64,000 nt of DNA, from positions 6,448,001 to 6,512,000 of the forward strand of contig JAPNXP010000009.1 in NCBI GenBank assembly GCA_028753945.1. Reading direction: 5' to 3'. Under the pieces are notes generated by a model. The model was given only the letters and a program-made list of their open reading frames with translations, had not been told where the DNA came from and searched no databases. Shown in pieces: positions 1,779 to 26,600 of this stretch. This DNA comes from Hexactinellida sp. DTS-2022. Taxonomy: Eukaryota > Porifera > Hexactinellida. The translations under genes were made by a program, and so were the position numbers. Each line of letters opens with the position of its first letter. Position 1 is the stretch's first letter.

Positions 1779-3712
1779 ATGTCTAAACTGGATTATCAAG
1801 TGCTGGCCCCGCACATGGAGCAGGACAAGAGCCAGATGCAGTGCGAGAACAACAGATTCGCCCAGTACCTGGAGATAACCAGGCGCATCAGGGACACCAA
1901 CATGACTCTCGAGAAGGAGATCGGTATTTACCAGAGCACGACTAGTCTGCAGATAAAGGAGGTTTGTCCTATGCTATGTGTAACTAATGCTCTTATTCTG
2001 TGATGTCACTAGATCCAGGACCAGTACACGCGCGAGATCGAGCTCGCGGACAGGGACCAGCGGCTGAACACGCAGGAGCGAGACCAGCTGCATGCGCAGA
2101 TCCGGGAGCAGGAGCGGGAGCTGGAGGCGCTGCTGCAGTCGGAGCGCGAGCTGGCGGGGGCGGGGGGCCAGGGCAGGGAGCGGCTGCAGAGTCTGAACAT
2201 TGCTCTCGCCGTGAGCGAGAAGGAGCGGGACGAGACTCAGGAGAGAGTGGAGGAGGTCACTTGCCTAGTCAGACAGCTGGAGATCCAGCTTGAGACTAGC
2301 TCTAAAGCTCTGGAGGCAGAAGTAAGGGAGAAAGAGGTGAGTGAGATTGCACTGCTTTATAGCTCATATTTGATTAACAGCATAACTAGGCTGCCTTCAA
2401 TGAACTCAACGAATTTCGCAACGATAGTGAAAACTCTCCTGACCACTACACCCAGTGTCTGGAGGAGAAGCGCCGCGAGAAAGACGGTCTGAAGGCCTCT
2501 TTTGAGCTCAAACGCATGCAGACGATCGACGAAGTGGACGAGCATTTGGCAGACACTCTCGAGGAGATTCGCAAGGACACGGAGGAGAGAGCGGGGAGCT
2601 ACCGGCGGCAGATCGAAGAGGTGTGTGAGCTTATAATCCTGTCGGATGCTGTGTTACAGTTGCTGTAGGAGTACCACGGACACCTGGTGGAGCTGAGGGA
2701 GCTCATAGAGTCCCGCGAAGAGACAGCCTCCGCCCTGGACGAGGAGGTCCGCGTGCTGTGGGAGAGACTGGTGGACACCAACAAGCGGTTCCGGGCCCTG
2801 GTGCAGGAGCACATGGAGCTCGAGAAGAGAGTCAGCAGCGACGAGAACTCCCACGAAGAAAGGCGGAGGAACTTCCTTAACGAGGTCCGTATCCAGACGG
2901 AGGACATCAGGAGCATCAAGGACAACATGGGTGGGAATCTAGAGAAGCTGCACGAGCTACTCGGCCTTAAGGTATGTGCTGTTAGTACCTGTAGCTGTAG
3001 ATATGTTATTATACGCCCGTAGATTCTTATATCGCACGAGGTGGACACGTACCAGACGCTGCTGGAAGAGGAGGAGAGCAGACTCAACCTGAACATGGAC
3101 AAGCCCCGGCGGGTGCTGCGCTCCAGGAAGCGGCGCCAAGAGGAGGTGCAGCAGCAGACCAAGGTCTTGCGAATCGATCCCATTTTCAAATCCCCTTCTA
3201 AGGACCCCGACAGGGTCGAGATGACCTCACAAACGGTGGACACTGTCATCGACAACCCAGAAGGGTTCCTACACATTTCCAACGTGGACTCGGACGGCAG
3301 GTACATTCTCATAAAGAACAACAGCGACGTCGCCGAGAACCTTGGTGGGTACAAAATCAAACACTCCTCCATCGACGAAACTCAGATTTTCAAATTCAAG
3401 TCCTACTCAAAGCTGCAGCCGGGTAGAACCGTGCGCATCTGGTCTAACTGCTTAAACGCGAGAAATTCCCCACCTTCTGACATCATTTGGCGCAGCCAAT
3501 ACAAGTGGATAACTGGGCGTGTCACCAAGACCCTCCTTCTAACGCCCAAGGGCGAGAAAGTGGCAGTTTTCACGCAGAGGACCAAATATGTCCCTCAGCA
3601 GTCTGCGCCCCCCCAAGCACCTCACAAATCAGCTGACTCCCCTGCGGACCCTGTGGCGGTGACAGCCGAGCCCCAGGAGGAACAGCTGAGAGAAGCGTGC
3701 ACCATTATGTAA
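1779..3712 (+). CDS. LMN: Nuclear lamin with CaaX box
   Basis: Intermediate filament protein of the nuclear lamina, predicted 576 aa. Five exons, each fitting GT-AG and frame: 1779-1961, 2013-2336, 2390-2620, 2669-2971, 3023-3712; the four introns are 48-53 bp. The head is very short. The first exon carries the start of coil 1A (ENNRFAQYLEITRRIRD), and the rod ends at the exon 4/5 junction with the conserved helix-termination pattern (VDTYQTLLEEEESRLNL). A basic nuclear localisation signal (RSRKRR) follows, then the immunoglobulin-fold lamin tail domain (GFLHISNVDSDGRYILIKN) and a C-terminal CTIM, a canonical farnesylation CaaX box. The length suits an invertebrate B-type lamin. The start is the first ATG in frame with coil 1A. 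Confidence 0.95.
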
Positions 3713-4321: not shown

Positions 4322-4326
4322 TACCC
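4322..4326. repeat. Target-site duplication TACCC, left copy
   Basis: Five bases TACCC directly outside the left terminal repeat, identical to the five bases outside the right one (7990-7994). Five-bp duplications are the rule for Transib and RAG-type transposition. Confidence 0.9.
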
Positions 4327-4363
4327 CACAGTGGTCCAGAATGGCGATTATCTTCGAATAGGC
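4327..4363 (+). repeat. Left terminal inverted repeat
   Basis: Two conserved blocks: CACAGTGGTCCAG (4327-4339) and TCTTCGAATAGGC (4351-4363), separated by 11 bases. The same blocks occur inverted at the right end but with only 2 bases between them. Confidence 0.9.
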
Positions 4364-4390
4364 ATTTTTACACATCCTAGGTACATAGAA

Positions 4391-4726
4391 TGTATTATTT
4401 GGGTATGGGTTATCGACCCTAAGAAAGCGATTGGTGTAATCAGAATTACTGTATGGCTTCAATTTTTTAAATTATGACGTCATCATATTCAAACAAAATG
4501 CCATTTCGTCTCTATAATTGGCTCTAAATGGACAATATACACATATAATGTATTATTTGGGTATGGGTTATCAATCCTAAGGAAGAGATTGGTATAATCA
4601 GAATTCTTGTATGGCTTCAATACCTGTAATTATGACGTCATCAAATTTAAAAAAATTGTCTTTCATATCTAAAATGTTATTTATCTTGATAATAGAGTAC
4701 CGAAATATATTAATTAGGTATATGAT
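4391..4726 (+). repeat. Tandem repeat, two units of about 168 bp
   Basis: TGTATTATTTGGGTATGGGT begins at 4391 and again at 4559. Similarity continues through the AATCAGAATT, GTATGGCTTCAAT and ATTATGACGTCATCA segments in both copies. The units have diverged by scattered substitutions. They lie just inside the left end of the transposon, beyond the 3' end of the transposase gene. The end of the second unit is approximate. Confidence 0.8.
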
Positions 4727-4992
4727 GACATTCTAGGATATCAATTGGGATTATTTATTATTTTTAAATATTTATAAGTTATTAAATTATACAATAACAA
4801 GACATTATTATCTTTCTGAGCTTCAACAGTTTACATAAATTTCTTATTAATTACAATCGCTACAGAAACAATTATTACTACCTATATCACAAATAATCAG
4901 TGAATTTACAAGTAAATCTTGTTGTGACAACTCCTTGGATAAATTTTTGTTTCTCTTGGATTCTACTTTTGTATGACAACTTCTCCTAACCA

Positions 4993-7024
4993 TTAAAGAA
5001 TAGGATCGCTTTGAGTTACAAGCCTTATAAATATATCTCTAACGTTATCATTAAAGGATGTTTTACGAGCAAGTTTGTCTCTATAATGGCGTATATGCTT
5101 ATTTAAAGCTTCGATACACTCCTCAGAGTACAACTTTAACCCGCATCCATTGTTGTACTTGTCGGTAAGTTCAGTGGAATGTGCCAAAAGTTTGTGAAGA
5201 GAAGGGGTAATGCTGATCCAGGGGAAATTGTTCACTATATACTCATAAGTAGTTTTGCAAAGCATTTCAAGTTTCCCGACGTCCAATTTATGGCTACTGT
5301 TAAAAACACGAAGTATTGCGCCAAGGTTTGTGTGAATAATTATGAGCTTTTCTTTATCTTCTGGAGCGATAGTGGACGTAGCCCACCTCAAGAAATCGCG
5401 TTTATTGTTAAAACTCTCTAGCGACGTTTCCAGTGGAACTTGTTCCTCCATCACAAGAAGGTAAATCAATGTGATATGAAGTTTCCTTCAATAACAAATT
5501 GCGCACTCTGTTCATCGATTTTTGCACCTGGGAGGAAGTTGGTGACCATTTTGTAGTGCCAGCGTCTAAATGATATATAACTAGCATTAGCCATCTAAAA
5601 ACGCAAAGGTAGCTATGTAGTGGAGAAACAGGTAGGATATCTTTTTCAGATATTGGAGGATGTGTTAACCCGTATCTCGATTTGGAATCCAATTTCAAGA
5701 ATTCTTCGTGATTACTCACATCATTAAATAGGATCTTTGCATCATGAATGAAACGATTAATTGGAAATCCATCCCTTATTAAATTCAAGTCTTTTAATTG
5801 CGTGTGGTTAGCAGTACACAACTGGCAACTAGCTCCACCAGCACCGCTCAATGTTGCAGACATTTTTGAATCAAATAATGATCTAATTATCCTAACGTTG
5901 ACATGACCACCAGTAATGTCCAAGCCAGAATCTTCTATTATTGATGTTTGAGGATTTATTAGTTCAGTCATTAAAAATTGAACGTTCTGAATATTCTCTT
6001 TGAGAGATATCAGGACTACAGGTCTAGTAACATAAGGAGAATTAGGAGTATCGTTTGACCATAATATTTCACAATTTTTGGATGTTATCTTGAGGATTTT
6101 AAAAGCGAAGAGTATGAAATTTTTTGTTGAAAAATCTGTGTTAGTCTGAAGTTGATTATAGACTTTATAGCTGCCTGATCCATCTAGGCCATCTGCGACA
6201 TCTATTGTTAATGGAAATTTGGTAGTATCAATACTCAATTGTTTTGACATTCTTTCGGTTGTAAAAGTTAGAATTTTCGAGTACGCGATACCTACCCCAA
6301 TTGGATAACCATCACGATGGTTCACAATTTCAATATGACTAGAGAGTGCCAGTTCGCGCCTATAAGTGGCTAGTTTATTGTATGTGGGGATTGTAAAACC
6401 TTCTGGTTTACAAATGACTCGCAATTCAGTGTATTTTCGTTTACCTATTTCCAGGATATCCATCAATGCTGCTGCCTTATCAAACTGTAATTTGCAATTC
6501 GTTTCTGCTAATACCCCAGTTTCAGCGATTTCTTTGCAAACTTCCGAAGTTTTCCTATCATAATCCTTATTTGCAATAAGCTCCAGTGACATTGCTGCTA
6601 TTTGTTTTGCAGTAACTGACTCTCTTTCAGCAATAAAAGCAATATGATCTAGGAGGATATTAAGTCTGTGTTTCAGAGATTCCTTCGTTACAGTGCAGAT
6701 ATGTTTCCTAGATTTTAGGACTTTCTCTTCAATGAAGATTTTTTTGCCAGTATCTATTGATTTACCGGAGATAATTGAACATTTAGACAATTCTAGGTCA
6801 TCGATAAGTAATTCGCTTTGGGATTGAAAGGGAGTATCATTCCAGCTGTCCAATTTACCATTTTTACGAAATCGCACTCGCTCTGAAATTAAGTCCCTAA
6901 AACGGTAGCGAAAATGTTCATACTCTGTTTCAGGTAGCTGGAATATCTCCAAAAAATCATTTGTAGCATCATTTACATTTTCATTATGTCCTTTTAAGAG
7001 GTTGTATGCTCCTATATTATTCAT
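4993..7024 (-). CDS. RAG1/Transib-family transposase, frameshifted
   Basis: DDE-type transposase of about 675 codons, ATG at 7024-7022. Frame 1 gives 538 aa ending at 5408; the rest continues in another frame to the stop at 4993. Motifs in order: D1 region DGLDGSGSYKVYNQ (about residues 278-291), D2 region FDSKMSATLSGAGG with Asp385, then CQLC (400-403), GGTSSTGNVAREF at the end of frame 1, and after the shift SLHKLLAH and SEECIEALNKHIRHYR with the expected catalytic Glu. D1 to D2 spacing is about 104 residues, close to 108 in RAG1 (D600 to D708). The CxxC plus HxxxxH pair matches the RAG1 C2-H2 zinc site. The frameshift falls in a TTTT run near 5408-5412. It may inactivate the gene, be a sequencing error, or be +1 ribosomal slippage at TTT-TAA. 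No N-terminal RING or zinc module of vertebrate RAG1 is visible. AT-richer than host genes. Confidence 0.9.
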
Positions 7025-7961
7025 TATCTTGTCTCGTTGGTTACTGTACGTGCAAAATTGATAGTTGTAAATGCAAATGTATTGATTTATTATTTACTCT
7101 ATTTATATCCTCATTAAACGAATGCATTTATTATTATATGGTTATCTTATGGCATTGAAGATTTACAGTACAATTGTGTTTCAATGAATCTTCACTGGCT
7201 TTATTCACGATCTTATTAAACTTCAATTATTAACCATTAATTATTAAAAGCGTATCATGTTCATGGTTTCAATAATGGAATTGAAACATTTAAATCATGA
7301 TTTGAAATATTTTTCTATGAGTTCGTTTACAAATTAATACAAGCGTAGATAATCAATCCATTCGTTACTATAATGCGTGTTATTGTACGAGTATTTTACA
7401 CTTTCTATTTAACCATAATAAAAAAATATTTTTAGATAAAAAAATTTCTTCTTAAAATGATGTGTACCGCACTCCCTTCCAGCTGCTAAACGACCATCCG
7501 CGCGCCTCCGCGCTACCCTGAACCCTATATGATATCTTTTCAGAATATAATGATCTTTCAAATGAAATTAATTTCATCTAACGCTTTGAAACGCGTCAAA
7601 AGTTATTACACAATAAACTTCTATTGATAAACTAAATTTCTTTTTAGGTCTTCATGTACTAATATCTACTTACACTCATCCTTTAGAGCTCTGATGTTGT
7701 GTTTATCTTAAAGTACACTTAAAATTGATTTAGAAACATTCCTTCCAAATTTAAAATCCTCCAAATACGAAAGACACAAAAATAAGATAGAAAAATTTCA
7801 AAAAATATTGTTATTAAATTCTGTTTGCAAGTCAAGGTTTACCAGAGCATAGTCCAAATATATTTACGTTTGATCATCAAAAAATTACGGATTCTAGGGT
7901 TTTCGACTCCGCTGAAATCGATTATAATAGTTTCGAAACGATTTGACTTGGTCAATTTTTT
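7025..7961. other. Non-coding right part of the transposon
   Basis: About 940 bp between the transposase start and the right terminal repeat. It is AT-rich except for a short GC-rich patch near 7480-7530 that could be part of the transposase promoter or leader. No second gene is seen here, in particular no kelch-repeat RAG2-like frame on either strand. Confidence 0.6.
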
Positions 7962-7989
7962 GCCTATTCGAAGATGCTGGACCACTGTG
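7962..7989 (-). repeat. Right terminal inverted repeat
   Basis: Read inward on the minus strand: CACAGTGGTCCAG (7989-7977), two bases, then TCTTCGAATAGGC (7974-7962), followed by an A-rich stretch (CAAAAAATT) just inside. The heptamer-to-second-block spacer is 8 bp here against 17 bp at the left end. Confidence 0.9.
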
Positions 7990-7994
7990 TACCC
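7990..7994. repeat. Target-site duplication TACCC, right copy
   Basis: Identical to 4322-4326 on the other side of the element. Confidence 0.9.
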
Positions 7995-8084: not shown

Positions 8085-9864
8085 ATGACACAGCAAGCAA
8101 TGAGTTTGTTAGAAGCTGTTGTATTCTACGGCCTGGAGAATCCGGAGAAGATGTACGCTAGATATAGCACCGCCTCTCAGAAATGCATCCTTCTCTTCAG
8201 CTCGCCGCCGCCTGACGACTTTAGCGACGAGGCCCTGGAGCAGGGCCGCAGCTCCCCCAGCACGGACTTCTCGCTGTCCCACCGGATAGACCTGCCCTGT
8301 GTCCGCGAGGCCAACAAGCTGGACAAGCAGAATCCCATAGACCGGAGCATGACTGACTACTCGCTCGCACTACTGGCCACGGACGGGGCCAAGCACCACC
8401 TGTGCTTCACGTCGCTCTCAGTGCGGGACGAGTGGCTCTCCCACGTACAGGCGGGTCTCGGGAGGGCCAAGAGCTCGCTCTCCCACTCACTGCCCATAAC
8501 CGGGGTCTCTCCCCACCAGCCGCTGGTCATCGGCAACTGCAACGCGGAAGTTAGCGTCGACTCGCCCTCCAGCTCCGAGAGCTCTGGGGACGAGCGCAAT
8601 GGGAAGAAGGAGCAGCCGCAGAACAAGGCGCTGGTTCTCAAGGGGAACCCGCAGGACTACCCCGCACTGGCTAACTGGAGCACCTCTCTCATCCGGTAAG
8701 TCCCACAGCTGTATAGCCACAGGCGTTACTTAATGCACTAGGTATGGGTATGGATACAAGAAGGGAGCCAAGCGCAAGAACTGGAAGTACCGGTTCTTCG
8801 TGCTGACGCAGCACTCGTTCGCGTACTTCGAGACCGAGAAGAAGAAGAACCCGATCTGCAGCATCCCTATCAGCAACGTGCGCACCATCTACCAGCGCAA
8901 AGACATGCAGGGACACAACTTCGTTATGGCTATCGACACCGACGACCGGATGCACCTGTGGGAGTTCGACACGGAGGAGGAGCTCAGGGGCTGGATGGAG
9001 GTTCGTTATACATGATAATATCTGGCAAAGTTCTATTGTTATTACGTAGGACTTCGCGGACCATATCGATATGAAGTCTCTGCCTCGGCCCACTCAAAAG
9101 ATTCCTCAGAAGATTACCCACATCCACTCCTTCCCAGGCGCCTCAGCTGACGCCTCGGAACACAACGCACACATCGCCAACAGCCTCCCTGCTAACATAC
9201 ACGCGGCGAGTGACACCTGCTCCTCAAATGTTGTCATCGAGACTAAGGTGTTTGATGGCGCGGTGGTTAGGAAGATTGTCAAGAAGACAGTACACAAGTG
9301 AGTGACATTCAGCCTCTAATTACTAGTCTGTTATATGAGCTATTAACCTGCTTGTTTTGTAGAGGACTAGACTACGACTCGGACGATTCACCCGAGGAGG
9401 ACAGCTCGGTGCCTGTGGTGAGCAAGTTCGCCAGAGCTCTGCTGGGCATCGACCCCTCCTTCCTGGTCAGGTACGGCTACTGTCGGAAGGAGGGGGGCGT
9501 GGTGCACAACTGGAAGAGGCGCTTCTTTGTTCTCACCAAGGGGACCCTCTCCTATTTCAATAGCCAGAATGACTCCCAGGCTATCAAGGTTATAAAAGTT
9601 AACACGATCACATCAGTGTTGGAAGCCCCGGCTTACCAGGGAAGGAACTTTGTTATTACTGTCCATACACATTCGCGAAACTACTTCATGCAGTGCGAGA
9701 CACAAATTCAATCCTTGGACTGGCTTGATGACCTCAATAAGTGTCGTGAGTACCAGGACAGGTTCAAGCCCGCTACCTGCACCCCCGCCTCCTCTGACCA
9801 AGAGGACATACTCTACCCCCCTCCCGTAAACAAGCCAGAGCCAGACTCCTCCGTCAACAAATAA
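8085..9864 (+). CDS. TAPP-like protein with tandem PH domains
   Basis: Predicted 539 aa if it starts at 8085. Exons 8085-8695, 8742-9000, 9050-9297, 9363-9864; introns 46, 49 and 65 bp, all GT-AG and in phase. The N-terminal 155 residues look like a divergent PH domain with a Ser-rich insert. A second PH domain starts near residue 204 (KKGAKRKNWKYRFFVL) and a third near 405 (GYCRKEGGVVHNWKRRFFVL). The third resembles the C-terminal PH domain of TAPP1/2 (PLEKHA1/2), which binds PI(3,4)P2 through this Lys/Arg pattern, so membrane-recruited adaptor function is likely. The C-terminus is acidic and Pro-rich. More exons may lie upstream of the transposon (see 3952-4212). Orthology to PLEKHA is not certain. 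Confidence 0.8.
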
Positions 9865-20546: not shown

Positions 20547-23500
20547 CTATACACACACTTATTAAGGGTGCTCTGTACTGATATTTTGACACCCGACGAC
20601 CTAATGTTTTTATTGCGTTTTTGGATAGTACAAATATATCTAAGATATCCCTGAAAATATTAGAGTTCTACTATGTATATAACCTTAGTTATGAACTAGA
20701 CAATGTCAATATAGGCCTAATCCATACTAGGCAAATATTTAAAAAAAATTTTTATGTTAGTTTTTAGCGCGAAACATGTCAATTATAAAATATACCTGAG
20801 TCAATACTCAATGTTTTAAATCGAACCGAAATATGCTTTTTCTTTAATCTACTCTATGTTATTGTCATTTTTGAGAAATTGGTCAAAAAAAAACCACTAA
20901 TTTTCATTAAAAGTATACTAATTCAATTTTTTTGTATTATATTGCCAAAACTGCCCGCTTTTAAAACATGCGCCTACATATACTGAGCATTTTAAAAAAA
21001 AGTTTGACTTTCTAGAATAAAATTCTCTTTTTTACATCCATATGCCCAAATGGTCTTTTTTTACACCTTCATAATTAGCATTTAATTAATTTGTGTCGAA
21101 GTGGCTGAGTCCAGAATATGAAAGTGCGAAGAAAAGGAGTTCCTAAACTGCATAAAATAGATAATGTCATTTGAAATTAAATTAGACTATTTTTAGCAAT
21201 TTAGAGCTAAGCTCTATCTCATTTGGATCAGAAGTTGGATTTTTGTCACCCTTTTAACATATTGCCACTTTGACACCACCATATTTGGGCATTTGAAATC
21301 AGAACACATCATTCGAATCATAATATAATCCCAAAAGTTTATCCAATGAGTAAGAAATAGTATCATGATGTGACTAGAATTTTAGAGCTAGTCTCTGCAG
21401 TCCAGAGATCAAGAGTTACAAAATTTGCTTCGTCATCAAAATTGGGCACATCAAATTACCATATATGGTCATGTTAAAAAGTGTGACACCTAGAGTCCTA
21501 AAATGTATTATAAACGTATAGAAAGTCAGGTGTTTACAGTATTTTCTAATGCCTATGATAATTTTATCTCAAAGCGTTTCTGAAATATCGACAGGTGTGA
21601 AATGTTAGATTTTTTGCCCCCTTCTGTGGCCCAAAAGTCCATAACTAATCGAATAATGATTGGATCGTGTTGTGTAACGTCTCATTTTGTGCGCAAATGC
21701 TATTTCCATATTTGTATTAACAAATTGGTGTTTTATATAATACATTATTGTATATTTGAGGGCCTTGAGGTGTGAAAATATGACAAAACAGACAAAACCA
21801 TAGTCATAAATTGGTCATAACTCATGATATATTATTGTAAAAGTGTTGAAAACAAATGCTACGCATAGATAAGATGCAGGCGCATTTTTATGAAGAATAA
21901 CAATATTTTCCTGCTGTCCAATTTCCCACAGTAATATATGATCACCGGGTACTTGCATACTCTTCATATTCTTTTATGCCCCTAATTTCCTAATTTTTGA
22001 CATATTCCTGAACTTTTTGACGTGAACCTGTATATTTTGACCTGTAGGTTCCGAATTTTTTAATTTTGGGAACAATATATGGCAGTGTAGAATTTTATCA
22101 CCTCTTTTGATGTTGAAATTCGGAAAAATTCGTGGGCCGCAGCCTTAGAATGCTTATAAAACCAAAAATAATTATCAGAAAGTCAAAAAATTTCTCTGGG
22201 GTAATACATGATACATCCTCAGAACCTTGAACTAGAATTGAAAATTTTTACTTCTAACATTTTATAACGATAGTTTAGTGCACGACTGCGTTTTATGATT
22301 ATTTTGAAAAAATGCCCTTTAGCATCGTTTCTTCTGCAAAAATAAATAAAATAAAAATTATTACTGAGAGGAAATAGTCTCATAATAATATGTTCAAAAA
22401 TTCAAAAAGATTCAACAATTTTTGAAAAAATGTCATGCCCATATAAGGAAGTCGACGTCTTATTTTATTAAAAAACACCATCTTGATTGAAAATTAAGAA
22501 GAAAAAAAATCATAGAAGTCAATCTCTATCTCATCTAGAGTATTCCTAGTAGTAAATTATGCAATTCTGAGATTCACCGTGAACGCCCGAATATCAATAC
22601 AGATTACCCTTAACACACTTTATTAACTTAGCAACTAATAGCTATTAGTGGCGAATTCGCTGTGTAATGAAAACAGTCCCAATTACAGGTTTTCTGCAAT
22701 CTTTGCTATCCAGTAAGCTGCTGCACTGAAGCTGTACATTAATATTAACTGAATGGTCATTCAATAATGAACAATACTTTGGTTTTTCGTGTACAAATAT
22801 GTACTTACAGTAGGGGTAATTATTTTTGAACATTTACAGGTGAACAAGCTGTATTTTGCTATAATTTGAAATTTATTTTAATTATCTGCAGCTGTATTTC
22901 CTCAATTAATGGACGAGACTGTAAGAGGTTTTCTCGATTAAGTTCTACTTAGAGTAATTATATTTTTATATGAGTAATCATGCAATCATCGTTTTTAGTG
23001 AATTTATCCTTTTGCCTTACCCAAAAAATGATAGAATTTTTTCACTTTGACAGGCTATCTTTTGATAACTCTTTAAATAAAATTAATCTTACAATTTACT
23101 GTTAGATTAACCTTCTGTCTAATAGACGATCCCCGACAACAGTCTCAGGTCGCCACATTTAGCTAGACACTCGCTAGTAGCATTACTGTTTATTCTGTTC
23201 TATAACCACCTTTGTCCCTTTGAAGCTACCTTGAGCTTCGAGGGGTCCACATCCTGATTCTTGTTATTTATTGATTTGAATAACTAAATATTTACCTTGG
23301 TGGTTTATTCTGTCGAATGAAGTAATTTAATTTCAGAATTCTACGTAAAAGTTGCACGACTCTGTATAGTAGAACTTAGCCAGTGCATCAGTATTGGCTA
23401 GCTATCTCTGGCTTAGCGGCATACTATAGGCTTTAGAAGCAGCTTAGCTGTGAGCTGGCTGGATATATTGCTTTCAGAGCCCTACTTATTGTTTAGAATG

Positions 23501-23658
23501 TAGACAGTCAATTATATTATTATTCAATAAATTCAGTTGTTTGAAAATCTTCACTTTTATTACATTCAATACTTCTTCAAAACTGTGAGTTTTCCTATTC
23601 AAATACAAATTGTTATGCATTTAAAATATAAATTATTTCTATTTCCCTGCAGCACTTA
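20547..23658. other. 3.1-kb AT-rich gene-free region
   Basis: The longest stretch without a recognisable gene in the window. Base composition is strongly AT-rich, with many A and T runs. I found no long frame, tRNA-like pattern, obvious transposon ends or clean repeat. Some phrases recur loosely (for example TTTAGAGCTA at about 21200 and 21383). It may hold regulatory DNA or decayed mobile-element sequence, and the last few hundred bases may include 5' UTR or outron sequence of the AFF gene. Confidence 0.5.
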
Positions 23659-26600
23659 ATGTCCTCATCACCTTTTGGCAGAGACCTAGATCACCCTTTC
23701 AGACAGTTCGAGAGTCGCAATTCAAATCTGCCAGTCAGGAACGCCCACGTCCGCTTTGGTGAGCCCCAAACTTCGAAGAACAGTTCGGATCCCCTGAACC
23801 TGAAGATCTCGGAAATACTTGGCCCCTTCAATCACGTATCTCCTCACCTCCTTTCCGAGTTGAACGACAGTGAGTAATTTGACTTTTATAGTATCCTATT
23901 CCTTCTTGTTTGTATTTATTGTTGTCTTCAGGTCCAGATAATCTGTTTGGCATAGAGCGGCCAGATACGCCTACTAGTCCTCTCAGCAAGAAAATACCCT
24001 TCCGATCAACCAACTCTTTGGACAAAGTCTCGAATAATACTTCCCCTAAACACCACAGGCAGAAACCAACAGGTGCGTTATTATCTCTAGCTGCATCAAA
24101 TATTTTTATGAAATATGTATCTAATGATTATTAGAGCTATTTTATTTGGAAATTTCCCTGCTATCTCTGATGATTGCCTCTTATTTTATTACGGGGCCTA
24201 CGAAATTATCTATTTTGACGCTATATGGAACTTGTAGCAGTATGCAGTATTTACTAATACACATTGTTGTAGGGTTCCATTCTTATTAACTTAACTTCTA
24301 TTCAGTGTTTGTATTAGACAATCTTACTGTCAATTTCAAAAGCAATCTTAAATTAGGTTATTCTCGCCTGTCGTAATTAGCTAATGGGTTACTGAACTCG
24401 CTTACACTGTGACTACTAATGTTTAATTCTTTAATTATGTAAATCAGACACAAGCTATCTGTACTTAAGATTGGTTCAACCACCTGATGGCATCTGGGAA
24501 TCTTATTATGTTTAACAACACACAACTTTACAGGAAGACTTTTCAGACTAATTTGCAACTAAATTATGTATTAAGTTAGTTTCTCCGTTTGCAAAACCAC
24601 CTAATTACATCAGGATTCATTTTACAACCTATAAGTGAGCTACAGCTTACTGCTAACTTGGCACACGCAATGCTTACAGTTTGCTAGTTAGCCCATCCTC
24701 AGGTATAAGTAGTCTTCTCAATAAATTATTTAGTTATTTCTTAGATCAAAAACTAGTAAGAATGATGGGACAGAATTCCCAAACGGTCTCTGCTGCGACG
24801 AGACACACCCCCAAACATTCATTTAACGCGTCAGGGCAAAAGCCCAGCCAAGCGCTCAAGCAGCGCAAGCCGCAGCTCCCGACCGACACCAGACCCAGAC
24901 AGACCAGCCAGCACTCGCTGCACCACACGGGGAAGCACGGCTCGCGGACGCTGCTCTCCAGTCCGAGCTCTGCCGCGCCCCCGCACCGGAGCAGCTCCCC
25001 GAACGGAAAGAAGTACAAACACGAAGACAAGAAGGGGGCCCCTCCCACGGGCCCCAGCAGGAGACCGGACAAGCCGAAGTCTAAAGAGGATACCGCCGGC
25101 ACCTTTAAGAAACTGCTTAACAGCGATCCATCGACTAGCAGGATGGTTAACGGAGATTCGAATAACTTGGGACAGAGGAGTCCCCCCCGAGAGGACACCA
25201 AAACTTCGGTTGTGCCCCCGGGCCGGGCCCTGAAGCCCCCTAGCGACAGACCGCGCTCAGCGACCAGCAGGAATGCGGGAGAGGTCACTCCCAAGAAGAA
25301 CCAGCTCCCCAACCTGGACCTCTCCCTCAACAAGCAGAACCTGCAAGATGACAGTAACGACATATTCGCTTTCGGTAAGCACATTGTTAGCACCGTTTAG
25401 TGCCTAGCTGACTAATGCGTGTTTAGTGATGGAGCCCCTGCCCACCCCTCTCACGGAGATCCAGACGCCAGACGGCATCAAGAAGTTCCAACATTTCCCC
25501 AACTGTTTCATCCGATCAGTGCTGCAGGATAAGCAGGACCTGGCGCCCTGCCGGGAGGGCCATGGCGCGCCTAAGACCGGCGGCCTGCGTCCCGACAGTT
25601 CGGACAGCGAGCCCGAGGAGCCGCCGAGGCCGGACGCCCCTCCGAGCAGACTCGCCCCTGTCAGTACTGCTGTCCCGTGGTCTGTGGCAGCCCTTATCTG
25701 TCGCTCTCTTGTAGAATTTCTTAGACATCGTGGTGAGTTCTGACTCGGACAGCAGCGACTCCTCCCCGACACGCCCCGGCTCCTTTCGCGACGGGGGGGA
25801 CAGAGAGGACATATTCCTGCCCCCGTCCCCAAAGAGGACCGAGAAGGTCACGGAGTCGCCCCCAGTTCCGGGCGCCCGAGGCTGGGGCTCCTCCCCCTCC
25901 TCCGACAGCTCTAGCGGAGAGGCGGAGGACGTCTGGAGACAGGGAGAGGTCGCCCCGGCCCCCCTACACAAGTAAGAGCTGTTAATAATAGTATTAACTT
26001 ACAGGCTGCTAATTGTTAACACCTATTCATTGACCTCTGTTCCCAGGAATGTGTACCCTCAGCGGGACCCTCCCCGCTTGCCCACACCTCCCATTGAAGA
26101 GAAGCCCACCCCAATGGAACTCGCCACAGAATCGCTCATGCATTACAGCACCGCCACGGTATGTTCGGAAAGTTAAATATGTCTACGCATAGAATGCTAT
26201 GGTCTACGTTATAGTGTTACTTATATTATTGGGCGGGTTTTGATTAACATTATCTGCTTGCATAGAACTGTACTACTGTGGCAGAGTATATTTCTGTGTA
26301 CAAACAACAATAACACCCTTGAATAGATTGCTATTGTTGGTACACATGCAGTTATATTGTGTACTGCATTGTTAGGGAACAAGATTAAAGAGATTATTTA
26401 TTAGCTTATATCTTATATGCATTATGCAATAACATACAAATTAGAAAACAAGTGTTTACCTTTGATCATTTATTTTGCTCTGCAGACCAAAACTCGTGAA
26501 AGGATGTCCGACGACTCAGACGGCAGCTCTCCCGACCTGAAGCGCCTCAAGGTATCCATCTCCCTGCACAAGATAGCAGTCCCCGAGAGGAACAGGAGTC

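Follow-up and report, generated by a model that had tools for sequence, protein, structure and literature searches.

Among the transposons related to vertebrate RAG1, the Subgroup I Transibs, described from a ctenophore and from Hydra (Transib-9), are possible intermediates between Transib and RAG1-like (RAG1L) elements; they are defined by asymmetric ends, the α11–α12 region, the C-terminal motif CTT1 (Cx2Cx3GHx4C) and proximity to RAG1L (PMC9435367). In most Transib families the ends are symmetric (PMC8289069), and 12/23-like ends occur in a few insect Transibs (PMC8355894). The present analysis concerns a transposon in a window of 64,000 nucleotides, meaning the whole stretch of DNA that was analysed, from Hexactinellida sp. 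DTS-2022 (assembly GCA_028753945.1, contig JAPNXP010000009.1, positions 6,448,001–6,512,000). Very probably, this is a recently mobile, RAG2-less glass-sponge element of the RAG1/Transib superfamily and of Subgroup I type, a cut-and-paste transposon expected to move by the mechanism proposed below. The Subgroup I kind itself is already described (PMC9435367); new here are the sponge host, the two fixed spacings within the ends and the RAG1-like nonamer-binding domain (NBD).

The sponge family resembles the Subgroup I Transibs in its asymmetric ends, NBD equivalent, longer zinc region and lack of a RAG2-like (RAG2L) gene, and in part also in the CTT1 zinc motif. It differs in its host: neither 'sponge' nor 'Porifera' occurs in the text of PMC9435367, and the listings of literature searches contained no report of a sponge Transib. 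Beside Subgroup I, it offers the vertebrate consensus heptamer CACAGTG in 15 of 15 subfamily representatives and a spacing counted over 543 matches. With HzTransib and the insect-type Transibs (Subgroup II) it shares the RNase H core, the D-D-E catalytic triad and, going by published descriptions, the CAC start and the 5-base-pair (bp) duplication, whereas the insect-type proteins are without ~35 amino acids (aa) of the zinc region and without the CTT1 motif, and their N-terminal region scores against the RAG1 NBD within the range of shuffles. AanRAGL of the pelagophyte Aureococcus has two-element ends with 4 or 13 bp after a 13-bp element (PMC9435367), which by arithmetic is 10/19 from the heptamer compared with 11/20 in the sponge, the same 9-bp difference, but it contains RAG2L and its heptamer is CACACCC. 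ProtoRAG of amphioxus (BbRAGL) likewise has asymmetric bipartite ends, NBD*, CTT* and a 5-bp duplication (PMC8289069, PMC7204232), but its spacers are 27/31 bp and RAG2L is present. Finally, vertebrate RAG1 and its 12/23 recombination signal sequences (RSSs) have in common with the sponge element the heptamer CACAGTG, the NBD, the core fold and the use of two signals that differ by about one helical turn in the position of their second element; on the sponge side, by contrast, no RAG2 was seen in the window element, the second block reads GGAARTAGG rather than ACAAAAACC, the spacers are 11/20 rather than 12/23, and the process is transposition rather than recombination. A spacing difference of one turn (10/19 in AanRAGL, 11/20 in the sponge, 12/23 in vertebrates) may be old.

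The window element and its copies

The initial annotation had recognized a transposon with CACAGTG ends, flanked by TACCC on both sides and spanning positions 4322–7994. The heptamers and the duplication are read directly in the sequence and the ends are correct, although this span adds both target-site copies to the 3,663-bp element (Table 1). Its single gene is indeed equipped with D281, D385, CxxC, HxxxxH, GGTSSTGN and SEECIEALNK, but is split by a frameshift into two overlapping frames; the proposed 26-bp two-block end consists of two blocks whose spacing differs between the ends, a point absent from the initial annotation.

A second copy on another contig (C1) is 99.9% identical to that in the window (5 differing alignment positions over 3.66 kilobases (kb)) and has the same two ends, a different duplication (TACTG) and an intact transposase of 726 aa. 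Two near-identical copies with different duplications suggest recent movement. Transposase matches in the genome number at least 85, with identities of 31–100%, at about 77 loci by hand count; this is a lower bound, with 80 of 829 first-look candidates scored. Thirty-four elements were examined in detail, namely the window element and 33 other loci, and clearly unrelated partner sequences were discarded by eye when the ends were paired. Both CACAGTG ends and a 5-bp duplication are present in 19 of the 34 (18 exact, 1 with one mismatch), both ends without a duplication in five, and one or both ends are missing in ten. From these, 15 subfamily representatives were used, each with ≤70% protein identity to its nearest neighbour within the set.

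An empty site is available for a relative of the window element. At L031, a copy of the family represented in the window is interrupted by a nested 1,160-bp relative, which has a short and a long end of its own and the duplication CAATT; the undisturbed 75-bp stretch with a single CAATT is found at 100% identity in the window (7189–7263), L021, L022, L023 and L033, and at 96–99% in three further loci. This site belongs to the sister element and not to the window insertion itself. A second nested element (L026) carries the duplication TAGAA, and no empty site for it was found among the 34 elements.

Two further observations concern other loci. At G000:C10:2982327-2984329, C11:2225512-2227300 and C13:2017790-2019595, a long and a short exact end are separated by 1.8–2.0 kb, and each such pair probably marks a shortened derivative of the family to which the window element belongs. 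The 3′ end at L030 (1461–1487) consists of two heptamer-bearing ends joined as a palindrome, perhaps the remnant of a failed or repaired excision.

Ends with two blocks at two spacings

Wherever the second, GGAARTAGG-like block can be placed in the representatives, it lies 10–11 bp past the heptamer at the end near the gene start, except in L037 (7 bp), and 20–21 bp past it at the other end. CACAGTG stands at both ends of all 15 representatives, in a search that demanded at least 6 of 7 matches. The window's own family has 12 long and 9 short exact ends genome-wide and no other spacing within 0–13 bp. In the window, CACAGTGGTCCAG occurs exactly at two places, both of them element ends; three more matches have 2 mismatches, where the chance mean is 1.7 at ≤2 mismatches, and the total of 5 matches was reached in 4 of 100 shuffles.

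Genome-wide, CACAGTGG followed within 2–27 bases by GGAARTAGG gives 543 matches, compared with none for the reversed pattern, and the distances from heptamer to block fall into two classes: 177 at 11 bp and, by subtraction, 330 at 20–21 bp, together 507 of 543. With only CAC and the block GGAAATAGG fixed at the short spacing, 161 places were found (3 in the reversed control), and CACAGTG was read in 82 of the 100 listed.

A scan with the consensus block was rejected because it misplaces the block in subfamilies where this differs (L025, L029, L032, L039, L045, L048, L053), and a consensus-free offset between the two ends was used instead. Of the 15 representatives, 11 have a single best offset, at +9 or +10, two show a tie that includes +9, and two have their best offset elsewhere; the summed score at +9 is 126, against a maximum of 96 over 300 shuffles. 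Assuming uniform offsets and mutually independent families, chance would give 11 or more of 15 at ~1e-11, but the families are not independent. The two ends also covary within an element, positions 9–13 agreeing at 4.27 of 5 within and 1.76 between elements (0 of 10,000 permutations).

The ends appear to come in pairs of unlike type. Among the 100 matches listed, 21 convergent neighbouring pairs lie ≤6 kb apart, 20 of them short plus long and one long plus long, the latter with ends that look like two families. Thirteen of the 21 pairs are <2.2 kb apart and thus too short for the gene; non-autonomous copies therefore keep one end of each type. Unpaired ends, judged by eye, are short at the 5′ side of the gene in 3 of 3 cases and long at the 3′ side in 5 of 5.

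Taken together with the chemistry of related enzymes, this arrangement can be cast as a mechanism. The RNase H/zinc core of the transposase would bind the CACAGTG heptamer, its RAG1-like NBD would contact the second block, and the enzyme would pair one short end (heptamer–11 bp–block) with one long end (heptamer–20/21 bp–block); cutting would proceed by nick and hairpin at CAC, and insertion would create the 5-bp duplication. Hairpin cutting, the assignment of domains to blocks and the requirement for a short and a long end are here modelled on the biochemistry of RAG and HzTransib, and the convergent pairs suggest the pairing rule from the arrangement of the ends in the genome.

Several observations weigh against this reading. 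Internal deletion gives copies a short and a long end by descent without any rule, so that the rule is only suggested. Other spacings account for 36 of the 543 matches (19 at 10 bp; 15 at 12–19 bp, 8 of them at 19 bp; 2 at 22–28 bp), and L037 has a short spacer of 7 bp yet an intact duplication. Taken one by one, the offset exceeds shuffles (≤3/500) in 8 of the 15 representatives, all of them among the 11 with +9 or +10 as their single best offset; shuffles reached the best offset in 18/500 cases for L050, 89/500 for L052 and 105/500 for L040, and the offsets of L032, L039, L045 and L053 are at or near chance level. The covariation test is somewhat biased, as pairs were chosen by a score that included agreement at positions 9–13. 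Lastly, the second block differs in sequence from the RSS nonamer. A RAG2-free glass-sponge transposon that combines the vertebrate heptamer, a RAG1-type NBD and enforced 11/20 pairing is put forward tentatively and, as to the enforcement, with considerable doubt.

The same copies and the same exception bear on the alternative that the asymmetry is idle, an old insertion in one end that was kept by descent while the first 13–17 bp drive cutting, as proposed for invertebrate RAG-like (RAGL) elements. Internal deletion would hand non-autonomous copies one end of each type in any case, L037 has an intact duplication despite its 7-bp spacer, and invertebrate RAGL complexes have been argued to use mainly the terminal 15–17 bp and to be relatively insensitive to end asymmetry (PMC7204232). 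Against this stand spacers held at 10–11 and 20–21 bp across representatives of ≤~70% protein identity while the intervening sequence has much changed, the two dominant distances of the genome-wide count and the retention of the block at both ends, and we consider idle asymmetry unlikely.

Two side observations touch the ends. The short end of L037 is a natural test case for spacer tolerance. The short-end consensus, drawn from the 15 representatives at their 5′ ends, becomes A-rich after the second block, ~21–22 bp past the heptamer; this stretch may be the true nonamer counterpart, in which case block 2 would lie inside the spacer.

The transposase compared with Transib and RAG1

Membership in the RAG1/Transib superfamily, as initially annotated, is borne out by profile matches, the fold of a relative and all three catalytic residues. 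Profile A1 was built from the intact copy and 19 of 42 sponge-type matches, profile A5 from 20 of the 120 listed HzTransib matches; the latter are called insect-type since all named members are insects, most members being without an organism name. Profile matches reach 7e-43 for HzTransib and ~1e-14 for RAG1. Pfam RAG1 is matched by 17 of 20 members at E ≤ 1 (best 2.6e-9), and PF12940 at 68 places in the host genome, 15 of them over the cut-off, but in none of 14 control genomes; for the window's own frames, Pfam gave no match to frame 1 and RAG1 at E 0.034 to frame 2. The predicted fold of the relative P0005 has a template-modelling score of 0.86 to HzTransib (by target length), and its residues 88–669 superpose on RAG1 387–1004. 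In the RAG1 columns of the D-D-E triad, both Asp are present in 27 of 27 sponge sequences, and the third column is E or a gap.

Ahead of the catalytic core, the isolated RAG1 NBD crystal structure is matched by profile search at E 0.0088, and in hhalign the sponge sequences score 33.4 against the NBD compared with 13.0 for insect-type Transibs and ≤18.7 in 40 column shuffles. Further upstream, residues 1–62 (P0005 model, window protein) form a confident domain of four to five helices, for which no clear Pfam family match was found.

Of the four features that define Subgroup I, asymmetric ends and the α11–α12 region are found and CTT1 in part, the longer zinc-region segment being equated with α11–α12 by length alone. 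A C-terminal zinc motif Cx2Cx3GHx4-7C occurs in 4 of 13 proteins from the genome itself, 6 of 14 other sponge proteins (several incomplete) and 0 of 14 insect-type proteins. Two points count against the proposed placement: the subfamily of the window element lacks this motif, and an NBD equivalent has been published for Subgroup II as well as Subgroup I Transibs (PMC9435367), so that the domain is not unique to the sponge family.

No bacterial or viral outgroup relative was confirmed in scans of genome contigs and viral contigs, and the maximum-likelihood tree is therefore unrooted; it comprises 13 of the 15 representatives, 14 of the 42 sponge-type matches, 14 of the 120 listed HzTransib matches and HzTransib itself, alongside RAG1 and the amphioxus protein BbRAG1L. 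RAG1 and BbRAG1L form one group (100), as do insect-type Transibs (100), and these two, on long branches, lie together across a split of 99 from the sponge sequences; the attachment point to the sponge group is weak (67). The tree leaves the sister order of the groups unsettled and gives a sponge–RAG1 pairing no support. The suggestion of an intermediate between Transib and RAG1-like elements thus stands insofar as features of Subgroup I Transibs are combined here, but not as a branching order.

Could the family instead be a RAGL transposon after secondary loss of RAG2L, and not a Transib that lacked this gene from the start? Its NBD, zinc-region lengths and C-terminal motif do resemble RAG1/RAG1L, and RAGL elements are known from a pelagophyte and from corals (PMC9435367). 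However, RAG1 and BbRAG1L, which are 34% identical, fall into one group, whereas the sponge proteins average 19% to RAG1, 22% to BbRAG1L and 25.5% to HzTransib, which is also the best single-sequence PDB match, making such a loss quite improbable. Identity to mouse RAG1 is 19.3% for the sponge proteins versus 16.9% for insect-type ones, and identity to BbRAG1L 21.6% versus 20.2%. A search of the genome with the RAG2 profile PF03089 gave no match, but neither did its control, and it is hence uninformative.

An ordinary Subgroup II Transib would share with HzTransib, the closest solved structure, the one gene and the 5-bp duplication. The distance from CxxC to LH, however, is 62–64 residues in 27 of 27 sponge sequences (57 in BbRAG1L, 61 in mouse) and 25–28 in 14 of 14 insect-type ones; that from GN to HK is 72–77 in the 22 of 27 sponge sequences measured and 64 in the 11 of 14 insect-type ones measured. 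As 10 of 27 sponge proteins but none of the 14 insect-type ones bear the C-terminal zinc motif, and mean identity between the two sets is 22%, this assignment is very hard to maintain. An assembly artefact or contamination, for which no supporting point was found, is practically negligible given a large number of loci that are spread over many contigs and differ in their duplications, host frames flanking the element on both sides and the empty site of a related insertion.

Table 1. Positions of transposon features within the window; RAG1 residue numbers follow PMC6941560.
Feature	Position	Strand	Remarks
Whole transposon	4327–7989	-	3,663 bp; transposase on minus strand
Target-site duplication TACCC, left copy	4322–4326	.	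Direct reading
Target-site duplication TACCC, right copy	7990–7994	.	Direct reading
Long end (gene 3′ side)	4327–4362	+	Heptamer CACAGTG 4327–4333 (direct reading), 20-bp spacer 4334–4353, block TCGAATAGG 4354–4362
10-bp stretch AATGGCGATT of long end	4340–4349	+	1 bp in short end at same place
Short end (gene 5′ side)	7963–7989	-	Heptamer 7983–7989, CACTGTG as read directly; 11-bp spacer 7972–7982, block 7963–7971
Subterminal direct repeat	4383–4505 and 4541–4663	+	85% identical; long-end side of element
Transposase frame 1	5408–7024	-	538 aa; N-terminal helical domain, NBD-like region, both catalytic Asp, CxxC
Transposase frame 2	4993–5469	-	158 aa in frame list; HxxxxH, catalytic Glu
RAG1 NBD-like region	6545–6724	-	~Residues 101–160, limits approximate; basis partly on relatives
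Catalytic Asp 281 (RAG1 D600 column)	6182–6184	-	Alignment
Catalytic Asp 385 (RAG1 D708 column)	5870–5872	-	Alignment
CQLC zinc ligands (C400, C403)	5816–5827	-	
Zinc-region segment	5621–5815	-	~RAG1/RAG1L length, ~35 aa longer than insect-type Transibs
HKLLAH zinc ligands	5179–5196	-	
Catalytic Glu of SEECIEALNK, 639 in intact copy (RAG1 E962 column)	5110–5112	-	Alignment

Apart from the two transposase frames, two short antisense frames and a 79-aa frame crossing the right end, no open reading frame of ≥60 aa was found within the element. A frame whose translation reads as lamin-like ends at 3712, and another frame starts at 8085. The GC content is 33–34% in two 2-kb bins over the element, compared with 52% on either side. 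The subterminal repeat is present in L023, too. Elsewhere, the window is gene-dense save for an AT-rich block (~20550–24500) without an open frame of ≥80 aa.

The host assembly comprises 112.4 megabases in 18 contigs, in keeping with the compact animal genome of the initial annotation, and we take the host to be a glass sponge (Hexactinellida) from the one host gene tested. The glass sponge Oopsacas minuta has a phospholipase C gamma 78% identical to the one of the host; four other sequences reach 93, 87, 77 and 51%, and the rest of the 120 matches listed of 924 reach ≤41%. Oopsacas is also the source of all six named sequences among the 42 homologues of the transposase.

Significance for the 12/23 rule

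The origin of the 12/23 rule is disputed: invertebrate RAGL complexes that are relatively insensitive to end asymmetry (PMC7204232) stand against the view that asymmetric ends are ancestral (PMC9435367, PMC8289069). In the genome described here, natural ends number in the hundreds; they carry the RSS heptamer and have two fixed spacings, and the many subfamilies of the transposase include a near-identical intact copy. With such ends, an intact copy and no RAG2 seen in the window element, the question of where the 12/23 rule came from becomes testable in vitro. If enforced 11/20 pairing were true, the logic of 12/23 would be older than RAG2 and than the vertebrates, and it would be open to study in a living element.

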